Of a DNA stretch of 64,000 nt, positions 2,482 through 37,157 are shown in pieces. Made by a program: the position numbers and the translations under genes. The notes below the pieces were generated by a model, which saw only the letters and a program-made list of their open reading frames with translations, ran no database searches and was not told where the DNA came from. Origin of the DNA: Dinoroseobacter shibae DFL 12 = DSM 16493 (GTDB taxonomy: Bacteria > Pseudomonadota > Alphaproteobacteria > Rhodobacterales > Rhodobacteraceae); assembly GCF_000018145.1 (NCBI RefSeq), contig NC_009958.1, positions 1-64,000 of the forward strand, given 5' to 3'. The stretch's first letter is position 1. Every line of letters starts with the position of its first letter.

Positions 2482-2522
2482 CCCTCTCGGCAGATTGCCT
2501 CGCAATCGCCTGACGGGCAGTG
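2482..2522 (-). repeat. 41-bp hairpin insertion element, variant 2
   Basis: Exactly 41 bp are inserted relative to the intact IS5 homologue, between codons for RLI and GRT. On the coding strand it starts CACTGCCC and ends GAGAGGG. The centre forms a hairpin: GGCGATTGC, loop GAG, then GCAATC and GCC with one bulged T. Stem bases differ from the other variants but pairing is retained. Confidence 0.85.
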
Positions 2523-2788
2523 GATCAGGCGACCACGCCCCCTTTTTTAGCGGCCATGCTGGTCGCAGTTCGATGTGCCTTGAGGTATGTCGCGTCGATC
2601 ATCACAGTCTTCTGTTCGCCGTGCGCCGCAGCGAGATCGGTCATCATCCGCGCAAAGATGCCTTTCTCGCTCCAACGCTTCCAGCGGCTGTAAAGCGTCT
2701 TGTGTGGACCATAGGCGGCAGGAGCGTCGCGCCAACGCAAGCCATTGCCATTGATCAAGATAATCCCGCTCAACACACGCCGATCATC

Positions 2789-2829
2789 CCCTCTCGGGAC
2801 ATTGCTGCGCAATACCCTGCCGGGCAGTG
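2789..2829 (-). repeat. 41-bp hairpin insertion element, variant 1
   Basis: Exactly 41 bp are inserted in the IS5 transposase between codons for PRV and DDR. The coding-strand order is CACTGCCCGGCA, arm GGGTATTGC, loop GCA, arm GCAATGTCCC with a bulged T, then GAGAGGG. It has the same orientation relative to the host gene as the other variants. 41 is not a multiple of three, so the frame is shifted. Confidence 0.88.
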
Positions 2830-2977
2830 AACGCGAGGCTTGCCGTGCGATTTCGGGAAGAAAGGGGAAAGCTTGGCCATCTGCTCGTCGGTCAGCCAGT
2901 AAAGGTCACTCATGTCACCGCTCCGTTTTCCGAGCCGTGAATCACGCAGCGCAGCGAAATTCAATGCGTCCTGACCC

Positions 2978-3167
2978 TAGGCTTTATAATCGAACATCCG
3001 CTCAAGCCCCGTATTCTCACCCAAAGATAAACTCAAGTATATTTTATTTAAAATTTCAGTCTATTTCTCTCAAAGAAAAAATATGCTGTTTAATTTCATT
3101 AACCGCCTGTAAGTATCAACCCACGACATTAGCAAGGCCACACTGTACCGAAAAGGTCTCACCGCTC
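2978..3167. other. AT-rich spacer upstream of the beta-helix gene
   Basis: About 190 bp without a gene, markedly AT-rich between 3030 and 3110, and probably carrying the promoter of the gene at 3168. From about 3145 (GTACCGAAAAGG) the sequence is shared with the second gene copy at 62319; upstream of that point the two loci differ. Confidence 0.5.
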
Positions 3168-6100
3168 ATGTCAGGTTCCTCCTACTTCAAGGATTACACT
3201 GCCCATCAAAACGCCACCATCCTTGTTTCCAGCACAGAAGAACTCAATGCCGCTGTGGCGGAGCTTGCTGGCACGACCGGGGGTACGGTTCTGCTCTCGG
3301 GTGAGGCTGGTCCCTACCGATTGGATGCGCGCAACCTCGGCGATAGTGCCGAGAGCGCGGTTCTGATCACCTCCCAAGACTCGAACAACCCCGCGCAATT
3401 AAAGCAGGTCTATATCGACAACAGTGTCTATCTCAGCCTGACCGATGTGACGATCGATAGCGGGGATTACGGATTCGAGCGGTCAGGCCATCTCCATGAC
3501 ATCTATGTAAAGTCCGGAGCGCATCTGCAATTCGTCGATCTGACCATGACCAGCACTGCCGAAGCCCCCCTCGGCTTCGATGACGACACCGTGAAGGCCG
3601 AGGATGCCGTCTATCTGCGCAATGCCTCGGACGTTCTATTCGCCGACAGCACGATCTCGAATTACTACCACGGTATCAGTTTGGCAGGGGTACGCGATAC
3701 GATCGTAACCGGCAACGACATCTCCGCCTTGCAGGGGGACGGTATTCGCGGCGGCGGCGTGAACAATGTTCTGGTCTCGGACAATCACATCCATGATTTC
3801 TTGGGTGCGACCAACGAGTACAACCACCCAGACATGATCCAGTTCTGGACCGGGTTCCCAGAGGGGATGACCAACACCGACCTGACGATTACCGGTAACC
3901 TGCTCAATGCGGGCGAAGGCTCCGCTGCTCAGGGCATTCTCGTACAGAACGAGGCCTTCGATGACGCGGGAGACCCTTTGGAGGGAGTTTATGGTCAAAA
4001 CCTGACGATCACGGACAATGTCATCCATTCGGGCATGTCTAATGGCATCGGGATCATCGGATACCAAGGGGTCGAGGTTGCCAACAATTCGGTGCTTTGG
4101 AACGAGGGCGCCGTGCTGTCCCAGACGGCTGATGCCGTACCGGCCTCCAACCCTCCCTGGATCTTGGTACGCAACAGCTTGGAAGTCGAGACCGCTGGCA
4201 ATGTCGCTCACTTGGTCCGGATCGAAACCGAGGACCAGGCCGAGACCAATTACTTTCTGGACTACGATAATCCGAGTGCGCCGAATTATGCCTATGCCCA
4301 TGTGATCGGCCTTGCCGCCGATGGCCAGACGGACGTCTACGACTTGCAATTCCGGCCCGATAGCCCACTCAACGGGGTCTCTGGCGCTGAGGCCAGCACT
4401 TGGACGCCCAGCGAGGCCCCGGTGAACGCCGTGATCTCCCAGCAGCCCAGTCTCGAGGACCGCGCAGCGGTGGAGTTGTCGGCCCGCTATTCGACTGTGG
4501 ATGGACAACTGGTTGATCCCGAGACTGCACAAGTCTTCTGGACCTTGGCCGATGGCACCGTCCTGGAGGGCCTGGAGGTCACGGTAACTTTCGACACGCC
4601 GGGGCTGCACGAGGTCACGCTCGATGTCCTTGCGCCTGATGGCAGTTCCGACAGCGCCACGAGATCCGTCGACATCCGCGGAAACGGCCTGTTCGAGGCG
4701 GATTTCGCCCGTTCCGAAACCTTTGGCGACGGTGTCGAGATTGTCGATCCCAATGGCGAAGCGTTCTCCAAGAAGGGCGTGTTCACTCTGGATGGCGACA
4801 GTGTTTTCGAGGTGACCCGCGGAAACCCAGAGTTCGAGACGCTTCATACCCTGTCCATGGACGTCTCATTCAAACCGGACGCGTTCGAAAAAAACGGCTG
4901 GCTGGTGAAATGGCTCAAGGCGGTCGATCTGCGGGTGACAGACGAGAAGGGGCTATGGCTCAAAATCGAGACCGATGCCGACGTTTACGAGATCCGCACC
5001 GAGGGTAACCTTCTTGAGAAGGGCGAATGGGCTGACATCGCGGTCGATTTCGACAGCCATGCGGGGCAGATGCGCTTGTCTCTGGACGGCGAGGAACTCG
5101 GCCGGACCGACGTCGAAGGCACCATCTCGGGGTCGCAATACGACCTCACCTTGGGAGAGGGCCGGGGGCGCAGCGCCGAAGGGGAGATCGATTACTTCTC
5201 GATGACCACCCCGCCTGCAGGATCGGTGCTTGAGATCGGAGACCGGTTTCCGGAGGAACCAGAAGAGCCCGAAGACGAAACACCCCCGCCGGTGGGTGTG
5301 GACGATAGCTTCATCACGGACGAGGATGTAAAACTCTCGGGCGATGTCTTGGATAACGATATCAATGGCCAAGGCGCTATCCTAACGGTGAGCCTACTCA
5401 GCGATGTGTCCAACGGCATACTACTGCTGAACAACGACGGTACCTTTGATTACACCGCCGCACCGGACTTTAACGGCTCCGATAGCTTTACCTACACAGT
5501 GTCGGATGGGTCGTTCACTGATACGGCCACGGTCTCGATCACAGTCAACTATGTGAACGACAATCCTGTCCTGACCGCAGACACGGTGACGACGAAGGAG
5601 GACATCTCGGTTAATATCGACGTGGTGGTAAATGACACAGATGTCGATGGCGACACGTTGAGCGTGTCGGTGGTCGGCGCGGCTTCGAACGGAACTACAT
5701 CAATAAACCTCGACGGAACAGTATCTTATACTCCTAATCTCCATTTCTTCGGCACCGACAGCTTTATTTACACAGCCTACGACGGACATGGCGGCGTCAG
5801 GTCGTCATCGGTTACCGTCACTGTCGATGCGGTTAACGACGCGCCGGTGATCGAAATCTCCAACTTCGCGGTCGACGAAGAACAGACAACTGTCGGTAAG
5901 ATAATCGCTTCTGACGTCGAAGACCACGATTTAGACTTTGCCATCTCGGGCGGCGCGGATGCCGACCTCTTCGACATTACGGAAGACGGCGAACTCAGCT
6001 TCCTCGTTGCTCCGGATTTTGAAGCGCCATTAGATGTTGGTGGTACCTCTGGCGACAATATCTACGAAGTCGAGGTATCGGCCTTTGACACTAGGGGTGC

Positions 6101-6497
6101 GTTGAGCAGTGCACTCTTCAACGTCGCAGTAAAGGATGTAGATGAGGGCGTCAGGCCGATCGAGGTCCTCGGGACGGGGGACAACGACGTGCTGACCGGA
6201 ACCGTGGCAGACGAGCGCCTCATCTCACATGGCGGCAGAATAGACCGGATGACCGGCGGTGGGGGTGCAGATGAATTTGTCTTCGGCCCTGAACTCGACA
6301 ACAACCAACGCGAACTCGATATTATCTACGACTACGACACCGATGATACGATCATACTGGGCTCTGATGACTATCGATTAATTTCTCTCGGAAATAGTGT
6401 ATTGATCCATCACAACGACGACGGCGACTTGATCTATGTGCTAGGAACAGAAGCAGAGAGTTTAATGATCGAAATTGAAAACTCCGCCGTTCTATAA
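3168..6497 (+). CDS. Large secreted right-handed beta-helix protein with cadherin-like repeats and RTX-type tail
   Basis: An acidic 1109-residue protein with no N-terminal signal peptide. The ATG at 3168 is preferred because the reading frame upstream runs through IS5. Residues about 1-410 form a parallel beta-helix rich in N-x-I and D-x-V turns, as in pectate lyase-like or epimerase-like proteins. A PKD-like domain follows (nt about 4415-4680), then a LamG-like jelly roll (4690-5210), two tandem VCBS/cadherin-type repeats (5290-5550, 5560-5835), a cadherin-like domain (5836-6150) and a C-terminal segment with GTGDNDVLTG and TGGGGADEFVFG, typical of RTX type I secretion substrates. It is likely exported in one step by a type I system not present here and may bind or modify an extracellular polysaccharide; the catalytic activity is not evident. 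The first 1.66 kb is duplicated at 62343. Confidence 0.85.
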   Translation: MSGSSYFKDYTAHQNATILVSSTEELNAAVAELAGTTGGTVLLSGEAGPYRLDARNLGDSAESAVLITSQDSNNPAQLKQVYIDNSVYLSLTDVTIDSGDYGFERSGHLHDIYVKSGAHLQFVDLTMTSTAEAPLGFDDDTVKAEDAVYLRNASDVLFADSTISNYYHGISLAGVRDTIVTGNDISALQGDGIRGGGVNNVLVSDNHIHDFLGATNEYNHPDMIQFWTGFPEGMTNTDLTITGNLLNAGEGSAAQGILVQNEAFDDAGDPLEGVYGQNLTITDNVIHSGMSNGIGIIGYQGVEVANNSVLWNEGAVLSQTADAVPASNPPWILVRNSLEVETAGNVAHLVRIETEDQAETNYFLDYDNPSAPNYAYAHVIGLAADGQTDVYDLQFRPDSPLNGVSGAEASTWTPSEAPVNAVISQQPSLEDRAAVELSARYSTVDGQLVDPETAQVFWTLADGTVLEGLEVTVTFDTPGLHEVTLDVLAPDGSSDSATRSVDIRGNGLFEADFARSETFGDGVEIVDPNGEAFSKKGVFTLDGDSVFEVTRGNPEFETLHTLSMDVSFKPDAFEKNGWLVKWLKAVDLRVTDEKGLWLKIETDADVYEIRTEGNLLEKGEWADIAVDFDSHAGQMRLSLDGEELGRTDVEGTISGSQYDLTLGEGRGRSAEGEIDYFSMTTPPAGSVLEIGDRFPEEPEEPEDETPPPVGVDDSFITDEDVKLSGDVLDNDINGQGAILTVSLLSDVSNGILLLNNDGTFDYTAAPDFNGSDSFTYTVSDGSFTDTATVSITVNYVNDNPVLTADTVTTKEDISVNIDVVVNDTDVDGDTLSVSVVGAASNGTTSINLDGTVSYTPNLHFFGTDSFIYTAYDGHGGVRSSSVTVTVDAVNDAPVIEISNFAVDEEQTTVGKIIASDVEDHDLDFAISGGADADLFDITEDGELSFLVAPDFEAPLDVGGTSGDNIYEVEVSAFDTRGALSSALFNVAVKDVDEGVRPIEVLGTGDNDVLTGTVADERLISHGGRIDRMTGGGGADEFVFGPELDNNQRELDIIYDYDTDDTIILGSDDYRLISLGNSVLIHHNDDGDLIYVLGTEAESLMIEIENSAVL

Positions 6498-6597
6498 TTG
6501 GTAGCTTAGCAGGGTGCTGAAGAAGTCTGCGGGACGGAACGGTTTTCTTTCGGCGCAGCCGTCTGCATTTGGTTTCGGCTCCTTCGAGGCACGTGAA
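6498..6597. other. IS-end-like debris
   Basis: The segment GCAGGGTGCTGAAGAAGTC resembles the end of an IS1182/IS4-type element (compare TTGTTGAAAAACTC at 12053). No gene is seen. It suggests the following IS3 copy landed in an older IS. Confidence 0.3.
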
Positions 6598-6616
6598 CTG
6601 AGGTGCCCCTAGTTTC

Positions 6617-7495
6617 CTAGACACCTGCCTGGTTCATCTTCTGCGGTCGGATTTCGAAGTCAACTGGTGACAGCATTCTGTTGTTCGTATGCTTGCGTTT
6701 CGGATTGTAGAACAGCTCGATGTATTCGAAAACGTCCCGTCTTGCGTCTTCGCGGGTCGGGTAGGTCCGACGCCTGATCCGCTCGCGCTTCAGCAATTGG
6801 AAGAAGCTCTCCGCAACAGCGTTGTCGTGACAGTTGCCCCGTCGGCTCATGCTGGGTTCCAGGTCGTGCTGGCGAAGGAACGTCTGCCATTCCCGGCTGG
6901 TGAACTGGGAGCCCTGATCGGAATGCACGGTGACCTTCCTGTTCGGTTTTCGTCGCCAGACCGCCATCAGCAGGGCCTGCAAGGCCAGATCCGTTGTCAT
7001 ACGGGACTGTGCTAACCAGCCGACCACGCGGCGCGAGAACAGGTCGATGACAACACATAGGTACAGCTAGCCTTCATGGGTTTTGATGTAGGTGATGTCG
7101 GTCACCCAGACCTGGTCCGGCTGAGAGGCGCTGAATTGCTGCTCCAACCTGTTCTCAGCCACAATGGCAGGCTTGCCGCCGTACCGGCCGGGACGGCGCT
7201 TGTAGCCAACCTGCGCAGCGATCCCGGCCAGCGATGCCAGCCGCGCCACCCGGTTATCGGAAATCTGTTCTCCCAGGTCGCGCAAGTCATCGGTCAGCTT
7301 GCGATAGCCGTAGACCTTCCCACTTTCGACCCAAGCCTGCCGGATCAATTCGGTCTGACGCGCATCCTCTTGCGCGCGGTGGCTTAACGGATTCTTAAGC
7401 CATGCATAGAAGCCGCTGAAATGGACCCGCAGCACCCGGCACATGGCTCTGACGCCGAACTCCTCACGATGCGCCCGGATGAAGGCGTACTTCAT
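6617..7495 (-). pseudogene. IS3-family transposase OrfB with an internal amber codon
   Basis: OrfB has an N-terminal HTH_21-type region and an rve integrase core. The catalytic triad is present: Asp in WVTDITYIKT, Asp in HSDQGSQF and Glu in NAVAESFF. A TAG at 7067-7069 replaces the Trp expected in HEGWLYLC, splitting the protein into 142-residue and about 150-residue parts just after the first catalytic Asp. Unless the amber codon is suppressed the element is inactive. Confidence 0.85.
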
Positions 7496-7764
7496 TGGGA
7501 CTCGCGCGCGAAGTACGCCGTTGCCTTTTTTAGGATGTCTCGCTCTTCGGTGACCCGCGCCAGTTCCCGCTTCAAACGCCGGTTCTCGGCTTCATGGTCC
7601 AAGCCGGGCTTTGGCGATGGTTCCCCGAACAGCTTCATCCATTTGTACAGAGAATGCTTGCTCACGCCCAAACGACGCGAAACCTCCCGAACTGGATACC
7701 CTCGAACCGTAATCTGATGCACCGCATCGCGCTTAAACTCGTCACTGTAATTGTTTGTCCCCAT
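7492..7764 (-). CDS. IS3-family transposase OrfA (HTH protein)
   Basis: A 90-residue protein with the HTH_Tnp_1 fold (REVSRRLGVSKHSLYKWMK) followed by a leucine-zipper-like heptad region (ENRRLKRELARVTEERDILKKA). It binds the IS ends and is normally fused to OrfB by a -1 frameshift in the overlap at 7492-7495. OrfA itself appears intact although its OrfB partner is interrupted. Confidence 0.88.
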   Translation of the reverse strand: MGTNNYSDEFKRDAVHQITVRGYPVREVSRRLGVSKHSLYKWMKLFGEPSPKPGLDHEAENRRLKRELARVTEERDILKKATAYFARESQ

Positions 7765-7959
7765 GTCGGCCTCCTTGCCGCAAAGTTAGGGGGCAAGGCG
7801 TCTACAAATCTAGGGGCACCTCAGAGTCCGTCGAGGCTCGAGTGCGGTCGGTGATGGTTGTCTCCTCAATTGGAGAGCAGGCTAATCTCAAATCGAGGAC
7901 TTTTCAGGGGAGCGGGTCAGAGGCACCTCAGTCCAATGTCTGGCGTTGACTACCAGCCA

Positions 7960-8178
7960 TCAAGATCCGAACTTTTCCGTCAGATAGTTGTTGAGATAAT
8001 GCGCTTCGCAGCCTAGTTCTTTCCGGGCCTCCTTCAACGCACTTTGTGCACTTAAAATTAAGCACTCATCACCCTTAGTTTCTGCATAATCAATCAATGA
8101 AAGTATTGATACTAGTATTTGCTCTGCTGCAGTCATAAATTTTAGAAACGGAATTGCACTACTAAGGTCATGACTCAT
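7960..8178 (-). CDS. Small hypothetical protein
   Basis: A 72-residue protein (MSHDLSS to EKFGS) rich in helix-forming residues. It is not recognised. The ATG at 8178 overlaps the stop of a 3' remnant of an IS5 transposase (ATGA), so the true N-terminus may have been replaced by IS debris; an internal start at MTAAEQIL is possible. It lies next to another cut small gene, and the two may once have formed a short cassette. Confidence 0.4.
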   Translation of the reverse strand: MSHDLSSAIPFLKFMTAAEQILVSILSLIDYAETKGDECLILSAQSALKEARKELGCEAHYLNNYLTEKFGS

Positions 8179-8245
8179 AGCCAGCAAATGACGAGTGCGG
8201 CGAGGGTGATGGCTGAAAGGAAGACCTTCGGGCATGGTCGTCGCC
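8168..8245 (-). pseudogene. 3' remnant of an IS5-family transposase
   Basis: In one minus-strand frame this encodes CPKVFLSAITLAALVICWL and a stop. That aligns with the C-terminus of the transposase at 25327 (CPKVFLSAIALAATVIYWL). Only about 75 bp remain. It separates the two neighbouring small genes. Confidence 0.75.
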
Positions 8246-8395
8246 AAGTCTATCTTTTTCTACCTGTTCTTGTTCATAGTTTTTTACAATTTCATCGAAA
8301 AGCTTGCGAAGGGCTGCCTCTGTGCAGGGAAGGCGTTTCTCCTTCGACGCCATAAGTGCGCCGCAGAGAGCATTTAGTTTTTCGGTTTCAGTCAT
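8246..8395 (-). pseudogene. 5' part of a small unknown gene, cut by IS debris
   Basis: The ATG at 8395 opens a reading frame of about 50 native residues (MTETEKLNALCGAL to QEQVEKDRL) before it runs out of frame into the IS5 remnant. It is lysine- and glutamate-rich and probably helical. No family is recognised. Confidence 0.4.
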
Positions 8396-8842
8396 GATAT
8401 AGCCTCGTGTGTATTGCCACTGTGCCGTAAGATCGTGAATTTTTTGTTAAAATTCTCGAAATTGACCTCCCCCCTCCCCCCGCCAGTCCCTCATTCACAT
8501 GAGATTCCGCGGGTTGGAGTTGGGTGTTCCGGTTCCTTGTCTTGGGCAAACGTACAGGGCGCGTAGCCCTCAAATTGCTCAAGCGCTCAGCGCGCTTTCT
8601 GCATTGTCTGGTTGCCCAGGGACGAGGGCAGCCTGACCGCATCGTGTCATAGCGCCATCTTCCTGTGCGTGTCATCCAGGCTGTCGCAGAACTCAAAGCT
8701 AATGCTTCCTTCCATTCTTGCGAAAGGATCACAACCTCAAACACCTAGGGAGATAACGCCATCAACCAGATTTCCGACACTGCGAGTTTTGCGCTACTAG
8801 CCGCAGAGGCCGGGTTCGACCTGATCAAGGAGCGGCTACGGA
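8396..8842. other. Non-coding stretch with an IS481-like end relic
   Basis: No convincing gene. A C-rich tract lies near 8468-8483. At about 8700-8745 the minus strand reads GTGATCCTTTCG and GAATGGAAGGAAGC, matching the left end of the IS481 copy at 1070-1100. This is another remnant of that IS, inverted. Confidence 0.5.
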
Positions 8843-9245
8843 CTATTTCCGCGGCGGCGACCGGCCCTGGCAGGTCTTCGTGCACGACCATTACGACAAT
8901 TTCTACGCTCGCTATTTCGCCGCGCGCCGGATGCGGGCCTGGGCCCGGACCCGCGAGACCGCGCCGCAGGCCCTGCTGGAGACCGCCAGGACGCATATCG
9001 CCGCCGATCTCGACCGGGTCTACAGCACCGAGGACCTCGGCGCGCTGGAGCAGGACATCGCCGCGCACTACGGCCTGGCGATCTCGGTGACCGACCGCTT
9101 CGTCAATACCGGCGACCAGCCCCACGGCGAAGCCCGCTGGCCACGGCTCATGGCCCTGCTGGACACCGACGCCGCCCGGGCGAAACTGACGGCCTTCGTG
9201 CAGACCGACGAGGCGCTGCTGGCTCGGCTGGGCCTGCCGGTCTGA
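8843..9245 (+). pseudogene. Sulfotransferase, 5'-truncated
   Basis: The reading frame from about 8843 (DYFRGGDRPWQ) to LARLGLPV aligns along its whole length with the C-terminal half of the sulfotransferase at 54931 (EYFFGGDAAWQ, HYDNFY.SYFA.RRM, the Y.T/S.EDLGALE region and the final LG.P/RV). The N-terminal PAPS-binding half (PKTAGQT-type P-loop) is absent, replaced by sequence next to an IS481 relic. It precedes the KpsE-like gene in the same direction and was probably part of the same capsule locus. Confidence 0.8.
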
Positions 9246-9369
9246 CAGGGGCGACCGCGGCGGGGCCGGGATGCCGCGGTGCATACCGCTGGAAAAAGCG
9301 CCCGGTTTTCGATAGCACACGGAGCAGGGCATTCTGGCCTGCCCGGACCGCCTGAAGGATTTTTCCCGC

Positions 9370-10845: not shown

Positions 10846-10861
10846 ACGCGTCGCACGCGCC

Positions 10862-11521: not shown

Positions 11522-11556
11522 CCGGCGCAGGCAGGATCCTTGAGGGCAGGGCAACC

Positions 11557-11931
11557 ATGTACGAACTCGATATTCCCAGAACCCCGATCCCCTTTCCCCG
11601 GGGCGCGACCCTGCTTTATGGCATCGGTGCGCAGAAGGCGGGGACGACCTGGCTGTCGGACCTGCTGCAGACCAGCCCGGACTGTCATTTCAGTCCGATC
11701 AAGGAGCTGCATTACTTCGACATCATGCGCCTGCCCGGCACCCAGACGATCCAGGTCGAGCGCATCGCCACGCTGCAGCGGCTCGCCGGGGAGCTGACCC
11801 CCGAACAAGGGGCCAGGCATCGCATCAAGCTGCGCCGGATCGCGGACCTCGCGATGCAGCTGCACATGTGCACCGATGAGGCGCCGAGCTATAACGGCTA
11901 TCTCGCCTACCTGCTGCAGGGCTACCTGTGA
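11557..11931 (+). pseudogene. Sulfotransferase, 3'-truncated before IS1182
   Basis: The first 124 residues of a sulfotransferase: the 5'-PAPS phosphate-binding loop GAQKAGTTWL is at residues 24-33, and KELHYFD follows. The homology stops at about 11930, where the frame ends in CTGTGA, and no 3'-phosphate-binding region follows. The IS1182 copy begins 120 bp downstream. It belongs by direction and spacing to the KpsE/KpsT cluster, and a sulfated capsule is the natural inference. A short functional protein is unlikely at this length. Confidence 0.75.
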
Positions 11932-13910: not shown

Positions 13911-15722
<1,812 letters not shown>

Positions 15723-15812: not shown

Positions 15813-15836
15813 GGGCAATGCCGCACAGCCGAACAC

Positions 15837-15945
15837 CATCCCTACGCCAGTATGAACTGGATCAGGTTCGTCGGGTCACTGCGCTATGCGTTGCCGCACC
15901 ATCAGTTTCTCAGCCCCTTGTCGGGACCCCCCGGGTGAGAAAGGA
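15837..15945 (-). ncRNA. TPP riboswitch (THI box) controlling thiC
   Basis: The minus strand carries the conserved aptamer parts in order: GGGGGGTCCC, AGGGGCTGAGA, GAACCTGATC, AGTTCATACTGGCGTAGGGA. It sits about 120 nt upstream of the thiC start in the same direction. Thiamine pyrophosphate binding would reduce thiC expression. Confidence 0.93.
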
Positions 15946-20852: not shown

Positions 20853-20857
20853 GAAGC

Positions 20858-25319: not shown

Positions 25320-26148
25320 CGGCATCTCATAGCCAATAGATGACGGTTGCCGCTAGGGCGATGGCTGAGAGAAAGACCTTGGGACAGCGGTCGTATCGGG
25401 TTGCCACACGCCGCCAATCCTTGAGCCTGCCGAACATGATCTCGATCCTGTTGCGCCGTTTGTATCGGCGCTTGTCGTACTTCATCGGTTTCTTGCGTTG
25501 CTTTCTTCCAGGGATACATGCGCGTATCCCTTTGTCTTTCAACGCTTCTCTGAACCAGTCCGCATCATATCCGCGGTCTCCGAGCAGCCATTCAACCTTT
25601 GGCAAACTGCTGACCAAAGCGCGGGCCCCGATGTAATCGCTGACTTGTCCCGCCGTGACGAACAGATTGAGAGGACGTCCCTGGCTGTCACAGATCGCGT
25701 GCAGCTTGGTGTTCATTCCGCCCTTGGTGCGTCCGATCAGGCGGCCACGCCCCCCTTTTTCACGCCCATGCTGGTCGCCGTTCGGTGGGCCTTGAGATAG
25801 GTTGCATCGATCATCACGGTCTTCCGTTCGCCATGCTCGGCAGCCAGGCCCGCCATCATCCTGGCGAAGACACCTCTGTCGCTCCACCGCTTCCAGCGGT
25901 TGTAGAGCGTCTTGTGTGGACCATAGGCAGCGGGAGCATCGCACCACCGTAAACCATTGCGATTGATGAAGATAATCCCACTCAGCACACGCCGATCATC
26001 GACGCGGGGTTTGCCGTGAGATTTCGGGAAGAAGGGCTCAAGGCGCGCCATCTGCGCATCCGTCAGCCAGAAAAGATCGGACATGTTCACCGCTCGGTTT
26101 TCGAACCGTGAATCATGTAGCCAAGCAGAAATCAATGGGTCCTGACCC
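25320..26148 (-). mobile_element. IS5-family element (IS427-like), left end lost
   Basis: The right end CCTGACCC with flanking TA is intact (26141-26150). The matching left end GGGTCAGG is absent, the sequence reading CCCGTTACGG instead where the IS110 element abuts. It is the uninterrupted relative of the two dead copies at 2064 and 55845, and was used here to define the 41-bp insertions. Confidence 0.85.
25327..26084 (-). CDS. IS5-family transposase, two frames joined by -1 frameshifting
   Basis: The first frame starts MSDLFWLTDAQM at 26084 and runs to 25737. The second covers 25947-25327 and ends ATVIYWL. The frames overlap at an A5G6 run after GGCGTG, a classical slippery region for IS427-group elements; a -1 slip gives KKGGRGRLIGRTKGG. 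The DDE core is visible as MIDATYLKAH (Asp), LLGDRGYDAD (Asp) and RRNRIEIMFGRLKD (Glu). No stop or insertion interrupts either frame, so this is the best candidate for a functional transposase able to move the defective relatives. Confidence 0.85.
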
Positions 26149-26698
26149 TAGGCCCCAGGATGGGGGGCATGCGTTCTGTGACCCCCCCTTCTCAAAGTCT
26201 GCCCCCTTCTAAAAAATTGCAGGGCTATTCTACATACATGCTATGTGTGCGAAGTGGGCGGTAATTCGGTTTTTTTCCGCATGTGTGTTGCATGGGGACT
26301 GGACGGGGCGCAGGTTGCGAAAAAACTCTGGTAACAGAGGCGGTTTCCATGGGCGAAGGCCGTTTCACAGCGGTCCTGAATATGCGGTGGAGGGTAGCGG
26401 TCTGGACAACAGCGAGGGCATCATGGCGATCGCGATGGGCGGGAAAAGCAAGCTAGGGGGCTGTACGGACTGCTCCAGGGCTCTCAGGCCGATTCTCCGG
26501 ATGCGGAGATGGGGTCTTGCTGAGACAGAGGCCCCCAGGGCGCAAATTGCGGTTGTCTCGGGGGGGGGGGGGAGGTCTGAGTTCCCGCGTGTGCTTCCAG
26601 CTCACAGCGGGTTCTGCTGGGTGCTTCCGGGTGACAGCGGGTTCTGTTGGGTGCTTCCGGGTGACAGCGGGTTCTTCCAGGTTCCCTCTCCCGGTCTA
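26149..26698. other. Low-complexity non-coding region
   Basis: About 550 bp between two IS5-family elements. It holds a 13-base G run (26560-26572) and three 30-bp tandem repeats (26591-26680). A 157-codon plus-strand frame (26243-26716) exists but is composed of repeats and biased residues, so I do not call it a gene. Confidence 0.5.
26591..26680. repeat. Three tandem 30-bp repeats
   Basis: Units at 26591, 26621 and 26651 share GTGCTTCC, GACAGCGGGTTCT and a few variable bases. The 30-bp period keeps any reading frame. A 13-G homopolymer lies just upstream. Confidence 0.85.
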
Positions 26699-27546: not shown

Positions 27547-27548
27547 TA

Positions 27549-28071: not shown

Positions 28072-28139
28072 TCATCTTATTGATATTGTTGTATTTTATG
28101 TGATTAAGGGCGGGTTTCCCCGCTCTCGGATGGCGCAGA

Positions 28140-30307: not shown

Positions 30308-30418
30308 CAGATCTTCTCCACGACGGGCGCCGGAAGCCACTCTTTCTATCTCACATCCCGGCACCCCTCAAACCAACAAACCTTTCCCTCTCTTATTCTG
30401 ACGCCCCCGAGACATGAC

Positions 30419-30434
30419 CTTAACAGCTGTTAAG
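30419..30434. promoter_or_regulatory. parS-like palindrome 1
   Basis: The perfect 16-bp palindrome CTTAACAGCTGTTAAG. It fits the general form of repABC centromere sites (TT-N4-GC-N4-AA core). A second identical copy is 58 bp away. RepB is the presumed ligand. Confidence 0.8.
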
Positions 30435-30476
30435 TCGTCAGTCCCGAGGTGGCGGAACAGTACGTAGTCTCTCAAC

Positions 30477-30492
30477 CTTAACAGCTGTTAAG
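30477..30492. promoter_or_regulatory. parS-like palindrome 2, overlapping the repC stop
   Basis: A second identical copy of CTTAACAGCTGTTAAG, whose right half overlaps the last codons of repC (stop at 30488-30490). No other copy was noticed in the window. Confidence 0.8.
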
Positions 30493-31699
30493 CTGCAGAT
30501 CGTCGCCCAATCAATGCCATGACCATCGGCCCACAGGAAAACTCACCGGCCGCAGCTTTGGCGGTCAGAGCTCGCAAGTATCCACCAGGCGATCTGATGT
30601 CCTCAAAGCGTTCCAGCATGGCAGCAACGACGATCGACGCTTGCTCCGGACCCATGAACCGCTGGGCTTCTTCCCATGCAGACGAACTGATCCCCATAGC
30701 TGGCCGCACATGGCATGCCGCGTCGAAAAGCTGATGCCAATGCCGGATTTCGCCTTGGTAGAAGGTCTTGAGCGAGGGACATGCCGCGATCACTAGATGC
30801 AACGGGATCTTTGGCAGGTTTTTTGTGTCCTGTTCATCGACGCCAGCCACAGGCTCATCCGTGTCCACATCTGGCATGCCGGCCACCGCCCGGCTTTTTT
30901 CTAAAGCAGGTTCAAGATCTATAGATTCTTTATTTGAATTATGATGGTGACGCTCAAATTGGGCATCATTGGTGTTCATTTCTTCTGTTTCAGGGCCATC
31001 AATGATGTTGCGTGCCTGGTCAAGGAGACCTTCAAGGTCGGCTCGGTAGGCCGCGAGGTCCTCAATTGAAAGCTTGCGGCGAAGCGCGCGGGCTGTGAGG
31101 GCGGCCTTGTCGCGAAGCTGATCCCAGAAGCCTAGGCCCGGCTGCATCTCGTCTCCGAACTCCGCGAGGGCCGCGAGATCGCGTCGCATGAGGCTTACGA
31201 CCTCTCTCAGGCGCCTGACGCGCTCCTCAGCTTCACGTACGGTCTCTGCGGCCCGTGCTATCTCTTCGGACTGACAGTAGAGCGGGGAAAGATCGAAACC
31301 AAAAGCGACGCGCTCTCCGCCGTGCTTGCGGACGTAGCGCTTTCCATTGGGGCTATCACGCCGCTGGAGCAAACCAGCATCGACAAGACGCGCGAGGTGA
31401 CGACGCATCGTGGAGCAGGGCATACCATTCAGGCGCTCACAGATCGCCTTGTTCGAGGGGAAGACTACCATCTCGGCGTTTCCGCCAAGTGCATCATCTG
31501 GAAAGAAGCTGAGGAGCCCCTGCAAAACAGTCAAATCACGTTCTGACACGCCAAAGGCCGCTTGCGCCTTGGATAGCTCGCGCAGGAGTTCCCACTTGTT
31601 GACGGGTCTACCCGGAACAGAAGCCTCGGGTCGCTCAATCACGCGCAGATGGGCCTGCGAGATCGGCCGCATAAACGGCGAAATCGGTGTGTACTCCAT
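30488..31699 (-). CDS. repC: Replication initiator RepC
   Basis: A 403-residue RepC from ATG 31699 (MEYTPISPFMRPISQAH); an in-frame ATG lies 12 bp upstream. The N-terminal winged-helix replication domain includes FPSNKAICERLNGMPCSTMRRHLARLVDAGLL. The C-terminal domain reads GYLRALTAKAAAGEFSCGPMVMALIG, the standard ending of the family. RepC binds the origin, which in repABC plasmids lies within repC itself, in an AT-richer central part (here about 30890-30990). Last gene of repABC, separated from repB by about 215 bp holding a counter-transcribed RNA. Intact. Confidence 0.96.
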   Translation of the reverse strand: MEYTPISPFMRPISQAHLRVIERPEASVPGRPVNKWELLRELSKAQAAFGVSERDLTVLQGLLSFFPDDALGGNAEMVVFPSNKAICERLNGMPCSTMRRHLARLVDAGLLQRRDSPNGKRYVRKHGGERVAFGFDLSPLYCQSEEIARAAETVREAEERVRRLREVVSLMRRDLAALAEFGDEMQPGLGFWDQLRDKAALTARALRRKLSIEDLAAYRADLEGLLDQARNIIDGPETEEMNTNDAQFERHHHNSNKESIDLEPALEKSRAVAGMPDVDTDEPVAGVDEQDTKNLPKIPLHLVIAACPSLKTFYQGEIRHWHQLFDAACHVRPAMGISSSAWEEAQRFMGPEQASIVVAAMLERFEDIRSPGGYLRALTAKAAAGEFSCGPMVMALIGRRSAA

Positions 31700-31749
31700 G
31701 AAAACGTTCACGAAGGCAAAATTTCTAGGGCCCGCGAATCGCTTTGCGC

Positions 31750-31778
31750 TTGCGGGGTAGGGGCCAGAACGCTACATT
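31750..31778 (+). promoter_or_regulatory. Promoter of the counter-transcribed RNA
   Basis: TTGCGG (31750-31755), a 17-bp spacer and TACATT (31773-31778) on the strand opposite to repABC, in the repB-repC gap. Confidence 0.55.
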
Positions 31779-31784
31779 CAGAAG

Positions 31785-31876
31785 TGCGAAAACTGAGATT
31801 TTGTAGCGGGCTGATCCCGGTGCGAAACCTTAAAAAGGTCTCGTGAAGCTAGCTTCTCGGGGCCTTTTTCTTTTTT
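31785..31876 (+). ncRNA. Counter-transcribed regulatory RNA of repABC (incompatibility RNA)
   Basis: The repB-repC gap of repABC plasmids encodes a small antisense RNA that represses repC. Here a sigma70-like promoter at 31750-31778 and a strong hairpin terminator at 31832-31876 define a transcript of about 90 nt antisense to the repC leader. Start position is inferred from the -10 box. Confidence 0.75.
31832..31876 (+). terminator. Rho-independent terminator of the counter-transcribed RNA
   Basis: The left arm AAAAAGG with GAAGC pairs with GCTTC and CCTTTTT across a nearly perfect stem centred on GAAGCTAGCTTC, followed by a T-rich tail (TTTTTCTTTTTT). Confidence 0.85.
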
Positions 31877-31913
31877 GCCTGTATCGTGCCTCCTTTTTGT
31901 TGGTTGCTCTTCC

Positions 31914-32843
31914 TCAGTCTCCTGAACGCTTCCAGCGCTCATGAAGCTCGGTAATCAGCTTTGAGGCATTGCCCTCCAACCAGCTGACAAATTCAGGTTC
32001 ATCGGTAGTCAGATCGAGTTTTAGCTGCTTGCCTTGGCGACCGGTCTTGACTGTCGCAGCTCCGACACCGGGGATCTCCAAAGCAGGCGCACCCTTGCGA
32101 GGCGAACCTGCTTTCCTCTCCGCGCTCTTCGCAGCTTCCAGAACTGCGAGAAACGCACGATCAGAAACCTCATCCACCGAGCCGGAACTTTCGGACTTAG
32201 CTGCATGAGCTGCGGCTTGCAGTTGGTCTCGATCACCGTCGTAGGCACCCAAGGCCTTTTTGAGTTCTTCCCATCTTGGGCGACCAATACCGGGAGCCGC
32301 ACCAATTGCCTGGATGAGTTCCTCGCCGACTGTCCGAACGACACTCAAGAGTTGTGAAACCCCAGCTTCATGGAGGTTAAGGACTTCGGCGACACCTCGA
32401 TTGGTGCGCTCAGCCCCTTCCAAATGGTCACCGTCCAGAAGCGCCGTTGCAACAAGCGCACGTTCAATAAAGCTCAGATCACGACGCTCTTGGTTCTCGA
32501 GAAGCTGATCTCGAAGCGCTTGATCACCCTCAACTTCCGTGACGATGGCTCGAACTTTTATACCGAGTTCGCGACATGCTTCTAGGCGTCTGCGGCCATA
32601 GATCAGGTTGTAGCGATCGCCTTCCAGTGGGCGGACCAATACAGGCACACGCTGACCGTTCTTGGAGATAGAGTTCTTCAGGCCCTCAACTTCAATCTGA
32701 AGCCTGTCATCCAACCGTCCTTCGGTAACAATCTGCACCGGATCGATCTCAAATACACCGCCACGCAGTCGGCGCCCTTCAAGAGCGTCAGGAGCGTTGC
32801 GAAGGGTCTGCAGCGGCAGGCCAAGTTTAGGCTTTCTTGCCAT
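31914..32843 (-). CDS. repB: Plasmid partition protein RepB (ParB family)
   Basis: A 309-residue protein from ATG 32843 (MARKPKLGLPLQTL), overlapping the repA 3' end by 17 bp. The ParB/Srx domain contains VLVRPLEGDRYNLIYGRRRL and QLLENQERRDLSFIERALVA. A central helix-turn-helix follows (RGVAEVLNLHEAGVSQLLSV), with a C-terminal RepB dimerisation region. It binds parS palindromes (candidates at 30419 and 30477) and, with RepA, segregates the plasmid. Intact. Confidence 0.95.
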   Translation of the reverse strand: MARKPKLGLPLQTLRNAPDALEGRRLRGGVFEIDPVQIVTEGRLDDRLQIEVEGLKNSISKNGQRVPVLVRPLEGDRYNLIYGRRRLEACRELGIKVRAIVTEVEGDQALRDQLLENQERRDLSFIERALVATALLDGDHLEGAERTNRGVAEVLNLHEAGVSQLLSVVRTVGEELIQAIGAAPGIGRPRWEELKKALGAYDGDRDQLQAAAHAAKSESSGSVDEVSDRAFLAVLEAAKSAERKAGSPRKGAPALEIPGVGAATVKTGRQGKQLKLDLTTDEPEFVSWLEGNASKLITELHERWKRSGD

Positions 32844-34020
32844 TCCGCCCCCATGTGTTCTGGATGATTTCAGCGATCTCATCGTTCACTGCGTTCATGG
32901 ATTCGATCGCACGATCAAACGTCTGACGCGTGAAGTCCTTCTTGTCAGCTTCGTAGAGCGTTTGCTTGGTCAAGCCGGCATCAGAAATTGCGGTCGATTC
33001 AACCATGTGATTGGTCAGAATCGACCTCCCGAACAGTCCGCGAATGAAAGCGATGACTTCGGTTTGTGGCGCGTCGCCGACTTTGTATCGCGTTGGCAAA
33101 AAGCGCAGCCAATCGAAGCGCAGATTTGCGCCTGCATCCCTGATCACTCCCAGGAGATCCGCGGTCATTCGCAGGAATTGGGACATCGACATGAGGTCAA
33201 GCATCTGCGGATGAACCGTCACGAGGACACCCGAGGACGCGGAAAGTGCTGACATCGTCAAGAAACCAAGCTGCGGCGGGCAGTCGATCACGACAACGTC
33301 GTAGTTCGCTTCAACACTATCGAGTGCGTCATGAACTCTCGCGAAGAACGCTTTCGCTCCGCCTCGCTGGATAGCAGCAGGCGTCTCGTGCTCGAACTCC
33401 ATGAGTTCAAGGTTGCCCGGGATAAGATCAAGGCCGCGGATGTAGGTCTTGCGGATCACTTCGGCGATCGGAACCGGATCGTCATAGCGAACGGCATCAT
33501 AGAGGGTTCCGCCCTCCATAAGGTCGAGTTCTGGCTGGATTCCGTGAAGAGCCGATAGAGATGCTTGGGGGTCGAGATCGATCGCAAGAACCCTGTACCC
33601 CTTGAGCGCCAAGCGCTGAGCGAGGTGAGCAGACGTCGTCGTTTTGCCGGACCCGCCCTTGAAGTTCACCACTGAAATAACTTGAAGCTCGTCACCGTCG
33701 CGACGCCCAGGCACGTAAGTTCCAGACTTTTTTGCGGTTCCTTCAAGCGTCTGCCGGATTTCCCAGATATCGTCGAGCGTATAGCGACGATGACTTCCAG
33801 CCGTCGTCTCAACGTCAACGATCTTTCCTTCTCGATGAAGCTTCCGAAGATAGGTATGGTCGACGCCAAGGAGTTCAGCAGCTTCGCCGCTGGTCAAAGT
33901 GCGCATCACCTTCTTTGCATCCGGAGGGAAGTGTGCGGCGCGCTGAGCATGCAGGTTCGACGCGAGAAGTTCCGCGTAGTGCCCGATGGCGATGTCTAGA
34001 TCCTGCTCTAATTCGCTCAT
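32827..34020 (-). CDS. repA: Plasmid partition ATPase RepA (ParA family)
   Basis: A 397-residue protein with an N-terminal MerR-like DNA-binding region (SGEAAELLGVDHTYLRKLHREGKI), then the ParA ATPase with deviant Walker A KGGSGKTT (121-128), Walker A' LAIDLDPQAS and Walker B VVVIDCPPQLG. First gene of repABC; it represses the operon promoter, which should lie in 34021-34150. Intact. Confidence 0.96.
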   Translation of the reverse strand: MSELEQDLDIAIGHYAELLASNLHAQRAAHFPPDAKKVMRTLTSGEAAELLGVDHTYLRKLHREGKIVDVETTAGSHRRYTLDDIWEIRQTLEGTAKKSGTYVPGRRDGDELQVISVVNFKGGSGKTTTSAHLAQRLALKGYRVLAIDLDPQASLSALHGIQPELDLMEGGTLYDAVRYDDPVPIAEVIRKTYIRGLDLIPGNLELMEFEHETPAAIQRGGAKAFFARVHDALDSVEANYDVVVIDCPPQLGFLTMSALSASSGVLVTVHPQMLDLMSMSQFLRMTADLLGVIRDAGANLRFDWLRFLPTRYKVGDAPQTEVIAFIRGLFGRSILTNHMVESTAISDAGLTKQTLYEADKKDFTRQTFDRAIESMNAVNDEIAEIIQNTWGRNGKKA

Positions 34021-34154
34021 GTCTGCCCCGATCCGTGGGCGCGTTTTTTATGTGACCGCGCGGTATTTTTCGAGACTATTGCCCGACCAACCAGATTCGT
34101 GCAAGCACTTTCTAGATTTAGTGGCAATCGGTTAGGCCAACACAAGTGTGATCC

Positions 34155-35036
34155 TCAGAGGAGCCCCAGGTTTTCAGCACGCTCCAGCAGCATTCTGACT
34201 GAGGAAGGCTGCCAGCTGGTGCGACCGCGAGGGGTGCGCTCACGCATGGATTCCAGTCGGTCACAGATTGCCTGCAAGGTGATCTCGGGGTCAGCACCTT
34301 TGATTGCAGCGACAATCGCAGGCAGGCGATCGTCGGTTTCGCGACGTCCAGCGCGTCCAAGCACTTCAGCGGGCAGGAACCCGTCCCGCACATATGCCTT
34401 CACAGCGCGGAGTAAACGGCTTTGGGTCCAGTGGCGGCCGTGGGGCAGGGGGCCATTAATGATCCGCAGCACATCTTCCCAAGCCATATCCGGCCGCAGG
34501 CGCCGCACATGCGGCACCCAATCCTGCGCGGTCTCGTTCAGGCGTTCCATGTAGCCATCCTGCCGGGCAAGCCGTACCTTGCGCAGCGCGGCGGGGTCCT
34601 TGGTGCGAAGCCCAGGATTGCCACCAACGCGACCTTTGGCGCGCGCAGAGGCAAGACCCGCCTTGGTACGCTCGCGGATCAGAGCGCGTTCAAACTCGGC
34701 CGCGGCGCCCAGAACCTGCAGCGTGAACTTGCCCTGCGGCGATGCGGTGTCGATTGGATCCTGCAGGGAGCGGAAAAAAGCTCCCTTGGCTTCCAACCGC
34801 TCGATCACCTCCAGCAAGTGCGACAAGGACCGTGCAAGCCGGTCGATCCGAACGACAACCAGAGTGTCGCCCTTGCTAATGCGCTCCAAGACCCGCGCAA
34901 GCACCGGCCGGGCGCGATTGCCGCCTGAGGCGTGCTCTTCGAAAATCTCGGAACATCCCGCAGATTGAAGGGCCTCCGACTGGGGCAGGGGGGTCTGATC
35001 CTCTGTGGAAACACGGGCATAGCCTATCAGGGACAT
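34155..35036 (-). CDS. Serine recombinase with extended C-terminal domain
   Basis: A 293-residue protein from ATG 35036 (MSLIGYARVSTEDQ). The catalytic resolvase domain has the nucleophile Ser in ARVST, VVVRIDRLARSLSHLL and AAAEFERALIRERTKAG. A C-terminal extension of about 110 residues, longer than in Tn3 resolvases, contains WEDVLRIINGPLPHGRHWTQ and may be a recombinase-like DNA-binding domain. Located upstream of repA, it probably resolves plasmid multimers; that role is inferred from position. Confidence 0.88.
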   Translation of the reverse strand: MSLIGYARVSTEDQTPLPQSEALQSAGCSEIFEEHASGGNRARPVLARVLERISKGDTLVVVRIDRLARSLSHLLEVIERLEAKGAFFRSLQDPIDTASPQGKFTLQVLGAAAEFERALIRERTKAGLASARAKGRVGGNPGLRTKDPAALRKVRLARQDGYMERLNETAQDWVPHVRRLRPDMAWEDVLRIINGPLPHGRHWTQSRLLRAVKAYVRDGFLPAEVLGRAGRRETDDRLPAIVAAIKGADPEITLQAICDRLESMRERTPRGRTSWQPSSVRMLLERAENLGLL

Positions 35037-35254
35037 GAAATCGGGCCGTTTGCAATTTAAGGTATCGCTAATAAACGACCGTTTGTAAACAAATGCAAGC
35101 AAGCGCTCTCTGGTCGTGCTCCTCCAAAAACCCTTGGTTTCCTTGCGCTAAGCGCGGTCTGAGCGGTTTCACTGGCAGTCACGCTCGCATACTGTGTAAT
35201 AAGTGTCGGCAACCGCCACAAAATCATTTGGGTAATGTGCAAAACCTCAGTATT

Positions 35255-35274
35255 TTGCATATATGAATATGCAA
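35255..35274. promoter_or_regulatory. Inverted repeat across the start codon of the 35263 gene
   Basis: TTGCATAT, spacer ATGA, ATATGCAA. The start codon ATG at 35263 lies in the dyad. It could be an autoregulatory operator or an mRNA hairpin that hides the start. Confidence 0.6.
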
Positions 35275-36330
35275 GCCTCTACTTTGACTGATGATTTCGA
35301 TGACCCCCTCAACACCATCGAGGAGGATGAAGAGGCTCACGAAGACGATCTCTGGTTTCTGCCTGGGCCACTCGAGGAAGAACCGGATGATTTGCCTCCC
35401 GGGCCACGGGCGGAACCGCCAGACACTGCTGTTATCGAAAACTGGGCAAAGGCAGAAGGCATTCACGCTGCGCGACTGGCACGGGTCGCTGGACGCCTGG
35501 GTGCTCTGGATGACCGGCTACTGCGCGGTCCTGAAGGCTGGCGGCACCGCCTCGCACTGATCGAGGCAGCGGAACTCAGCTGGTTTGCAGGGGACCGGGT
35601 GAGTTCTGATCGTCTGGCGCTCTGGATATCGATGCGGCTGTCGGGTGCACAGGATGACCCGAATGCGCTGGCACGCGTTGGATGGGCTGTTCGGCGCCTG
35701 ACAGGCGGTCCGGGACCGGAGTCTGACTTGGCCGCCTTCCTGAATCGCCGCGATCCCAAGAACATTGAAGACAACGCCGAACGCTTCAAAGATCGCGCGG
35801 GCGGATGGCTGGACGTCATGGCGGCTGCGGGCGAGCTCCACCCGATCACGCGGGCTTGCATGGGCTTTCATCTCTGGAGTCTGGCGGGTCTCGGTGGGCA
35901 GGGCGACCAGATCGAAGCCGCCGTCACGGCGTCCAGGATCGCGGCCAGAGACGGAAGCGGCGCCGTCTTCGCACCGCTCGCCATGGGCGGGGCAGGGGGG
36001 CTGCGTGTTTCGGGCTTGCCACCCGAACGTTTGGCCCGCTGGCTGGATGGGATGAACAGCGCAATTCTGACGGTGATGCGAACACTTGACGATATTGAAG
36101 CGTGGACGGGTCGGGCAGAAAACGTCATGGCGCAATTGTCTGGCCGCACGCCGCTTGCCTTGCGAAGAACTTTCTCTCAATGGCCCTTGGTCTCCGCTCC
36201 AATGGCAGAAACCGTGACCGGAGCCAGTCGCGCCGCCGTTCAGCGCAATCTGGCGTGGATGGAGGCAAGGGGTTTGATCCGCGAAGTGACCGGGCAAGGG
36301 CGATATCGAATGTGGTCTCTCGACATCTGA
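35263..36330 (+). CDS. Plasmid-associated HTH protein, similar in layout to DUF1612/RHE_PE00001-type proteins
   Basis: A 355-residue protein. An acidic N-terminal stretch (DDFDDPLNTIEEDEEAHEDD) precedes a helical domain (VAGRLGALDDRLLRGPEGWRH). A C-terminal winged helix-turn-helix reads PMAETVTGASRAAVQRNLAW, then MEARGLIREVTGQGRYRMW. The overall layout resembles DUF1612/HTH proteins common beside repABC modules in Rhizobiales and Rhodobacterales. The C-terminal domain probably binds DNA; the target is unknown, but the dyad over its own start suggests autoregulation. Family assignment is from memory of the layout and is tentative. Confidence 0.6.
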   Translation: MNMQASTLTDDFDDPLNTIEEDEEAHEDDLWFLPGPLEEEPDDLPPGPRAEPPDTAVIENWAKAEGIHAARLARVAGRLGALDDRLLRGPEGWRHRLALIEAAELSWFAGDRVSSDRLALWISMRLSGAQDDPNALARVGWAVRRLTGGPGPESDLAAFLNRRDPKNIEDNAERFKDRAGGWLDVMAAAGELHPITRACMGFHLWSLAGLGGQGDQIEAAVTASRIAARDGSGAVFAPLAMGGAGGLRVSGLPPERLARWLDGMNSAILTVMRTLDDIEAWTGRAENVMAQLSGRTPLALRRTFSQWPLVSAPMAETVTGASRAAVQRNLAWMEARGLIREVTGQGRYRMWSLDI

Positions 36331-36435
36331 AAGTCGTTTCTCAGGGTTTGCGGGGTGGCTCCAATCTGTCAGCATGACAGAAATTGTCATGCTGGGATAC
36401 TACAACAAACGCAAATTTGAAATGAGGCCGTCAGC

Positions 36436-36778
36436 ATGACTTTCTCAAAAGCTGCCAATCTGTTGCGCGTCGCTGACATGGTGACCTCGCGGTATGATGG
36501 AATCCGATTGCAGGACGTGACGGACGAGTTCGCCTGTGATCACCGAACCGCACAGCGCATGATGCGTGCTTTTGAAGCAGTGTTTCCTCAGGTTAGCGTT
36601 ACCGAAGATGATCAGCGCCGCCGCCGCTGGCATTTGCCCCGCAGTGATCCTCGATGGCTGCAGGCCCAAGGACTACGTGACAGTGAATTGGCCGCACTCG
36701 AAATGGCAGAGAAACGCGCGCTTCGCGATGGCGCGCTCGAAGATGCAAAAAACATCCGCGCTTCCGCCATCGAAAAAT
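36436..36778 (+). pseudogene. WYL-type transcriptional regulator, 5' part only
   Basis: The start MTFSKAANLLRVADMVTSRYDGI is followed by an HTH (TDEFACDHRTAQRMMRAFE), as in DeoR/WYL regulators. At about codon 114 ([10 protein letters not shown]) the sequence passes into IS3 debris on the opposite strand. The WYL ligand domain is missing, so only the DNA-binding part could be made. Confidence 0.65.
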
Positions 36779-37157
36779 ATGCTGACGCCTTGCGAAGGAT
36801 CTCGTTCGCCTGGCGCAGCTCGCGGTTCTCCCGCTCTAAGGCCTTCAGCTTCTCAGCCATCTCGGTCGAAATACTGGCGCGATCTCCGCGATCAACCTCG
36901 GCCTTCTTGACCCATTTGTTCAGCGTCTGGGGAGCGCACCCGATCTTCGAGGAAATCGACAAGATCGCTCCTCTCGGGACATTGCCATGCAATGCCCTGC
37001 CGTGCAGTGGACCAGCGGCTCTCATGCTGCCCGGGATTGTCCAGAACCAGGCGAACGGCACGCTCGCGTACGTCGGGGGAACACTTGTTCGTCGTCTTGC
37101 TCATGATGCTTCGTCCTGCTCAGGAGTTGAAGCCTCCGGCAAACCCGGCGCGGTTCA
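36775..37157 (-). pseudogene. IS3-family OrfA remnant carrying a 41-bp insert
   Basis: Minus strand: [19 protein letters not shown] from 37104, then SRWS, then the 41-bp element, then [20 protein letters not shown], a coiled coil and ILRKASAYF, where it stops at the junction with the truncated regulator. orfB is absent. The outer IS end (complement TGAACCGCGCCGGG) is at about 37157. The insert shifts the frame. Confidence 0.8.
36969..37009 (-). repeat. 41-bp hairpin insertion element, variant 3 (in an IS3 orfA)
   Basis: On the coding strand: CACTGCACGGCA, arm GGGCATTGC, loop ATG, arm GCAATGTCCC with a bulged T, then GAGAGGA. It sits in a different IS family from variants 1 and 2 but has the same length, orientation and structure. 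Relative to the expected SRWSAILS frame, the net insertion is 40-41 bp. Confidence 0.85.

Follow-up and report, generated by a model that had tools for sequence, protein, structure and literature searches.

Analysis of a 64,000-nucleotide stretch of 86-kb plasmid DNA from Dinoroseobacter shibae DFL 12 (NC_009958.1, positions 1 to 64,000; hereafter the window) led to a 41-bp hairpin sequence inserted in transposase genes, and this sequence is a real mobile family, not a peculiarity of the window. We consider it rather probable that it represents an ultra-short, non-autonomous hairpin element of Rhodobacteraceae that is moved in trans and kept mainly in the DNA of insertion sequences (ISs). A pattern search of the window returned 5 matches with 0 mismatches, compared with 0.00 expected from 100 shuffles, which confirmed the five 41-bp copies put forward in the original prediction as well as their location inside IS5 and IS3 transposase genes. 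The copies and their hosts are as follows.

2482..2522, minus strand: hairpin element, GGC-stem variant, in IS5 copy 1 (sense); pattern match, net 41 bp relative to the empty homologue, 62.5 bits
2789..2829, minus strand: hairpin element, GGG-stem variant, in IS5 copy 1 (sense); 41 bp, pattern match, empty homologue, 69.5 bits
36969..37009, minus strand: hairpin element in IS3-type orfA (sense); 41 bp, pattern match, HTH_Tnp_1 host, 58.2 bits
56263..56303, minus strand: hairpin element in IS5 copy 2, same as 2482-2522; pattern search and IS5 copy comparison
56570..56610, minus strand: hairpin element in IS5 copy 2, same as 2789-2829; pattern search and IS5 copy comparison
2060..2980, minus strand: host IS5-type insertion sequence, copy 1, with two elements and a nonsense codon at 2335-2337
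55842..56760, minus strand: host IS5-type insertion sequence, copy 2, 100% identical to copy 1 with different flanks
25327..26151, minus strand: related IS5 without elements, the empty-site reference, 75% identity
36615..36968, minus strand: downstream part of the IS3-type orfA split by the third element

Over two compared stretches of 921 and 551 bases, the window and the 86-kb D. shibae plasmid have the same sequence. A third IS5 copy just beyond the window carries two further elements (C5:65158 and 65465), and all three copies share a 100% identical sequence within differing flanks. Both IS5 sites are net 41-bp insertions relative to the empty IS5 at 25327-26151. The element at 36969-37009 interrupts an IS3-type OrfA (HTH_Tnp_1, E=3.1e-6); its sole empty-site match, at 68% identity, is doubtful.

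The family-wide search of Rhodobacteraceae that the original prediction had called for found at least one match (≤2 mismatches) in 74 of 394 genomes, the window's own genome included, and this spread, together with the empty sites described below, supports the view of a miniature mobile element. A reversed-pattern control over genomes of the same family gave zero among the matches listed. The exact gapped end pattern was present in 4 of the 5 Rhodobacteraceae members tried and in none of 332 other alphaproteobacterial genomes. In contigs of the Genome Taxonomy Database (GTDB) an exact pattern occurred in 118 stretches; among 80 titled stretches, four were not recognised as Rhodobacterales, namely two alphaproteobacterial metagenome-assembled genomes (MAGs), one Rhizobiaceae MAG and one Enemella contig. 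The last of these (L055), labelled Enemella evansiae, an actinobacterium, carries a Rhodobacteraceae-like IS5 with three elements, reflecting either contamination or transfer. Matches also occurred in 96 plasmid records and in two stretches of viral contigs, and no match was found in the phage records searched. In four genomes (G013, G123, G055 and G075), many copies sit in multi-copy ISs that bear one to five hairpins each.

Past mobility is evident from empty sites. We took 188 copies with ≤4 mismatches, searching flanks of 80 nt or more, and found an ungapped empty-site homologue for 106 of them, a few at low identity and some doubtful (e.g., L003 at 68% identity). The net insert was 41 bp in 71 copies, 40 bp in 30 and 42 bp in 5, a variation that the alignments locate in the G run at the 3′ end; the reading frame is broken by inserts of 40 or 41 bp, whereas 42 would keep it. 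No target duplication was seen in the empty-site alignments. Across 121 site families (defined below), the target has C/T at −4 (81%), A/G at −3 (88%), T at −2 (79%) and C at −1 (76%), and the base after the insertion point is mostly G, so that the overall target reads C/T-A/G-T-C, then the insertion point, then G. At 6 of 63 compared sites the base preceding the insert is T where the empty homologue has C, and the reverse holds at 2. That the sequence is an ancestral part of the transposase gene, the finding that was to count against insertion, was examined and rejected on the strength of the 106 empty-site homologues.

To describe the anatomy, 198 non-redundant copies (≤6 mismatches) were reduced to 182 (≤4 mismatches, flanks of at least 30 nt) and grouped into the 121 site families. 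Two modules are nearly fixed among these families, CACTGCCCGGCAG at the 5′ end and CGAGAGGG at the 3′ end, so that the constant ends may be written CACTGCCCGGCAG ... GAGAGGG, and between them lies a hairpin whose 9-bp stem has a bulged T and is closed by a 3-nt loop. Among 115 distinct copies, pairing is kept in 97.9% of pair cells and double-sided changes occur at 8 of the 9 stem pairs, whereas sliding the partner by 1-3 columns left 27-59% paired. This covariation bears out the predicted stem, loop, bulge and paired changes, and with them the proposed selection on hairpin structure. Mismatched cells were more often G.T (26) than A.C (8), which favours the written strand as the folding one, either as RNA or as single-stranded DNA. 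When DNA folding was compared with shuffles, one of the three window variants stood out (z −2.75; the others −0.98 and −1.48). A wider scan, in which pairing was itself a search criterion, yielded 210 copies with the same ends, 103 distinct hairpins, lengths of 34-45 nt and the bulge present or absent, which shows that the hairpin is replaceable between constant ends. We found no covariation for a second small stem (3-6/10-13) or an outer stem (3-4/38-39), and by eye no clear inverted repeat between the two element ends. Mutual information, used to seek guide-target pairing, gave as its top links those between the first downstream bases and stem position 15 (z ~7.7 and 7.5), which we take to reflect subfamilies; no link of similar strength involved the upstream target. 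On the D. shibae chromosome, an intergenic stretch (L194 2840-3030) contains two similar GGGGCCGACATT repeats, one of which comes after a truncated element without the bulged T.

The host DNA is concentrated in ISs. In 108 of the 121 site families, the site lies within or directly against a gene that has homologues in other loci; in 11, homologues exist only for sequence next to the site, and 2 lack any. One of these two (L139) resembles an IS66-type transposase by eye. Genes with homologues in at least five other loci lie at 76 of the 121 sites, compared with 2 of 196 control positions taken from the same loci at least 2.5 kb from any element. Pfam was run on 110 of the 121 sites, after dropping nine short fragments and two without a homologue, and its output consists of counts per family in which members matching nothing are uncounted. 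The matches are transposase or integrase domains and their helix-turn-helix parts: rve, HTH_21, DDE_Tnp_1, IstB, Mu-transpos_C_2, IS66, IS256 Mutator, IS110, HTH_38 and DUF772, along with a DDE_3 match below its cut-off and one phage-integrase-type recombinase. From the domains, we take rve and HTH_21 to denote IS3, DDE_Tnp_1 IS5/IS4-like elements, and IstB with Mu-transpos_C_2 IS21; HTH_38, DUF772 and DDE_3 presumably mark IS30-like, IS1182-like and IS630-like elements, respectively. Matches to AAA, ResIII, PhoH, DnaA and sigma-54 domains probably represent IstB. About ten IS families thus contribute the transposase genes identified as hosts.

Scanning 17 near-complete positive genomes with a covariance model produced 137 hits, and 76 of these were classified; the other 61 are mostly copies inside multi-copy ISs. 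Among the classified hits, 61 overlap open reading frames (ORFs) with homologues among the ORFs of the loci collected first, four lie in an IS5-type gene (one with a Pfam match, two sharing its flanks and one further along the same gene) and one adjoins another DDE transposase domain, placing 66 of 76 firmly in IS-type genes. Two more have flanks that match, by eye, those of a site family found again in six other loci. The remaining eight comprise an intergenic copy between rhamnose-type genes, one at the start of a DNA-methylase ORF, one in a DUF3768 fragment, one in a D. shibae intergenic region and four weak or unclear cases. The original idea of an element specialised for transposase genes therefore holds as far as concentration in IS genes is concerned, and not as a strict rule, since some copies lie outside ISs.

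All in-window copies are oriented like their host gene, at only three independent sites. The rule drawn from them, that every copy faces the same way as its gene, was weak because it rested on those three sites, and beyond the window it failed: 63 site families are antisense and 45 sense (two-sided binomial p=0.10). In 71 genes, 42% of elements were sense, compared with 49% of unused target motifs, and the leading codon phase was the same; orientation and codon phase thus resemble what target-site availability would give. Elements also accumulate. A permissive scan found 54 clusters of at least three elements, 30 after repeat removal (two of them copies of one IS), and the densest case comprises nine hairpins within 1.35 kb in one decayed IS3 gene (L144 4-1348). 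The same sites are used repeatedly: comparison of 23 distinct IS3 copies shows different hairpins at identical positions and in identical orientations, in lineages interleaved with element-free copies. Elements in 65 same-site pairs were more alike than random pairs (mean 2.62 vs 4.85 differences; loops identical in 22 of 65 vs 23% of random pairs), which indicates that inheritance also plays a part. Inheritance and re-insertion at shared sites both seem to occur.

Interrupted ISs nevertheless spread onward. In genome G013, six copies of one IS3 bear four elements each (two sense, two antisense) and no other lesion. The search, in which 40 of 46 first-look candidates were scored, listed no other full-length copy of this IS3 in that genome, only fragments of at most 318 bp. 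These six copies differ by 12 non-synonymous and 3 synonymous single-nucleotide polymorphisms (SNPs), a rate ratio of ~1.2. An IS3 in genome G075 likewise carries four elements and no other lesion. In D. shibae, the three IS5 copies contain a nonsense codon, yet the element-bearing IS multiplied. Spread in trans by another transposase would explain these observations on host genes without any bypass of the insert.

In the mechanism that we favour, constant ends flank a freely evolving hairpin, 34-45 nt in total, and an enzyme acting in trans, from the host or from some other mobile element, would insert the element as a folded single strand between the C and the G of its target, leaving the target unduplicated; the anatomy favours a nicking enzyme acting on such a strand. 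Persistence mainly in ISs may then come from low cost, because a frameshifting insert is cheap in a dispensable transposase gene, plus the spread of interrupted ISs, because such an IS can spread when another copy supplies transposase. The single-stranded intermediate, the action of an enzyme in trans and the preference for retention over targeting are inferences; that the element is kept where DNA is dispensable and spreads by itself explains its concentration in ISs more simply.

Several observations weigh against this account. When only the positive genomes were run, a Y1_Tnp match was found in 15 of 74 and none in the other 59. A reverse transcriptase domain, RVT_1, was present in 10 of 17 positive genomes and in 6 of 23 pattern-negative ones (p=0.053). 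Across 14 genomes, no longer element with the same 5′ end was found. At most 10 of the 76 sampled copies are not firmly in ISs, and this share of ISs seems high for mere tolerance; intergenic DNA should tolerate the element too. Among the 65 same-site pairs, the ratio of non-synonymous to synonymous rates (dN/dS) was ≤0.5 in 53, higher in 8 and saturated in 4. One pair (L039/L129) has in common a degenerate 3′ element end, which indicates that this element was inherited, and shows dN/dS ~0.2, both members having other lesions. Finally, element-free copies of one IS3 and one IS5 type were lesioned in 8 of 14 rows. Lesions by themselves are therefore no sign that an element-bearing copy is dead, and the count of other lesions in 16 of 21 element-bearing groups of these two IS types (by eye, with near-identical copies merged and one truncated copy omitted; the five without are G013, G075, L080, L095 and L146) is a weak one. 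A cruder count, which found no further stop or frame change in 42 of 101 hosts, included stops inside elements and was not used.

A resident Y1 transposase as a requirement was rejected on the 59 genomes lacking a match, and neither D. shibae nor G013, which has 38 model hits, gave a Y1_Tnp match; such an enzyme might still be supplied from outside. The host recombinase of the original prediction may be the mover. No autonomous parent with the same 5′ end emerged from the 14 genomes; of 44 exact 13-mers of the 5′ end, 43 were model hits and the other lay where no hairpin was present. A need for reverse transcriptase was set aside, 7 of the 17 positive genomes having no RVT_1 match.

The concentration in ISs might instead reflect active targeting, in which a Rhodobacteraceae system would recognise IS DNA as multi-copy, transposing or poorly translated and plant the hairpin there, disabling transposons. 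The excess of repeated genes over control positions, the hits on about ten IS families, the up to nine elements in one gene and the several genes otherwise little damaged all fit such a system, as do two elements in a non-coding miniature inverted-repeat transposable element (MITE) with IS5-type ends by eye; the copies outside ISs listed above (rhamnose-type intergenic, DUF3768 fragment, D. shibae intergenic and DNA-methylase ORF start) do not, the target is only about five bases long and no system was found, and we regard this explanation as fairly unlikely. The MITE-like stretch spans ~350 bp (L132 ~4222-4573, and L135). In its broadest form the idea would be an unlikely but family-wide genome defence, with ISs of any family recognised and inactivated by a structured 40-bp hairpin cassette whose ends are constant and whose hairpin is free, in outcome like repeat-induced mutation in fungi.

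It is quite unlikely that insertion is RNA-mediated, as in a bacterial short interspersed element (SINE) whose small structured RNA would be copied into DNA at a nick by a reverse transcriptase acting in trans, with the 3′ G run giving the 40, 41 and 42 lengths. The single strand with more G.T than A.C mismatches, the length variation at the G run and the somewhat commoner RVT_1 in positive genomes would suit this model, but DNA hairpins tolerate G.T too, the RVT_1 difference falls to 8 of 17 vs 5 of 23 by the curated cut-off, and RVT_1 is unmatched in the seven positive genomes noted above. Least of all do we expect an intron-like or translational bypass, in which the insert is skipped in mRNA or by the ribosome and the transposase stays active: the otherwise lesion-free IS3 copies of G013 and G075 and the low dN/dS of many same-site pairs are what it would predict, but antisense copies are common, codon phase and orientation match those of the available target sites, the D. 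shibae copies that multiplied contain a nonsense codon, dN/dS is ~1.2 among the G013 copies (from 15 SNPs) and most element-bearing groups have other lesions, so that this part of the original prediction found no support.

Among known systems, the ends of IS200/IS605 elements have a short target on the 5′ side, a bulged hairpin and no target duplication, and our element resembles them in its fixed short 5′-side target, lack of duplication and bulged hairpin; it differs in having one conserved hairpin only, no longer relative in 14 genomes and a mostly unmatched Y1. Unlike MITEs of DDE transposons, it shows no target-site duplication in the empty-site alignments and, by eye, no clear terminal inverted repeats, and in those 14 genomes no longer element with its 5′ end was found. 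T4 gene 60 and mitochondrial byp sequences are hairpin inserts in coding DNA that are subject to translational bypass, whereas our element occurs in both orientations and in host genes that also carry nonsense codons. The cyanobacterial small dispersed repeats (SDR), reportedly described by Elhai in 2008, are said to be very small mobile repeats with a paired stem, and we know of no IS preference among them; by description they are similarly small and paired, and differ in size and lineage. REP sequences insert cleanly, a trait that our element shares. In two studies, REP/REPIN sequences are short imperfect hairpins, dispersed and non-autonomous, with REPs mainly extragenic, GTAG-tagged and RAYT-linked (PMC3116915, PMC3733652). 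Our element shares with REP/REPIN (RAYT, TnpA-REP) a short palindrome with a mismatch or bulge, but is intragenic in ISs, 108 of its 121 site families lying within genes or directly adjoining them, has no GTAG and lacks a Y1 match in 59 of the 74 positive genomes. CGTC-tagged palindromic repeats are common in Alphaproteobacteria and are also short palindromes, with no dedicated transposase found (PMC3733652), just as none was found here. That study places CGTC within the repeat, whereas here C/T-A/G-T-C is a target outside the insert, and the hosts of our element are IS genes. The element acts like the smallest non-autonomous repeats (REP, CGTC repeats and SDR) and lacks defining features of REP/RAYT and MITE families. 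The absence of a matching named family, as originally suggested, agrees with our searches: we found no description of this element among the papers listed by the literature searches, and none of the three Rfam matches in the window overlaps a hairpin copy. These matches include a TPP riboswitch at 15821-15943 (−), above the Rfam gathering score, and a sub-threshold match at 31832-31876 (+) to the antisense RNA family of plasmid p42d, which would make sense on a repABC-type replicon.

If this reading is correct, the element is among the smallest mobile DNA known, and its constant ends with an interchangeable hairpin constitute a design seen in none of the compared families. Its concentration in insertion sequences is the most surprising feature. 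Identifying the helper enzyme would reveal either a novel activity that integrates single strands at a target of about five bases or a bacterial transposon-breaking mechanism, and because the IS genes of many Rhodobacteraceae are peppered with the element, the annotation of IS activity in this family would be affected.

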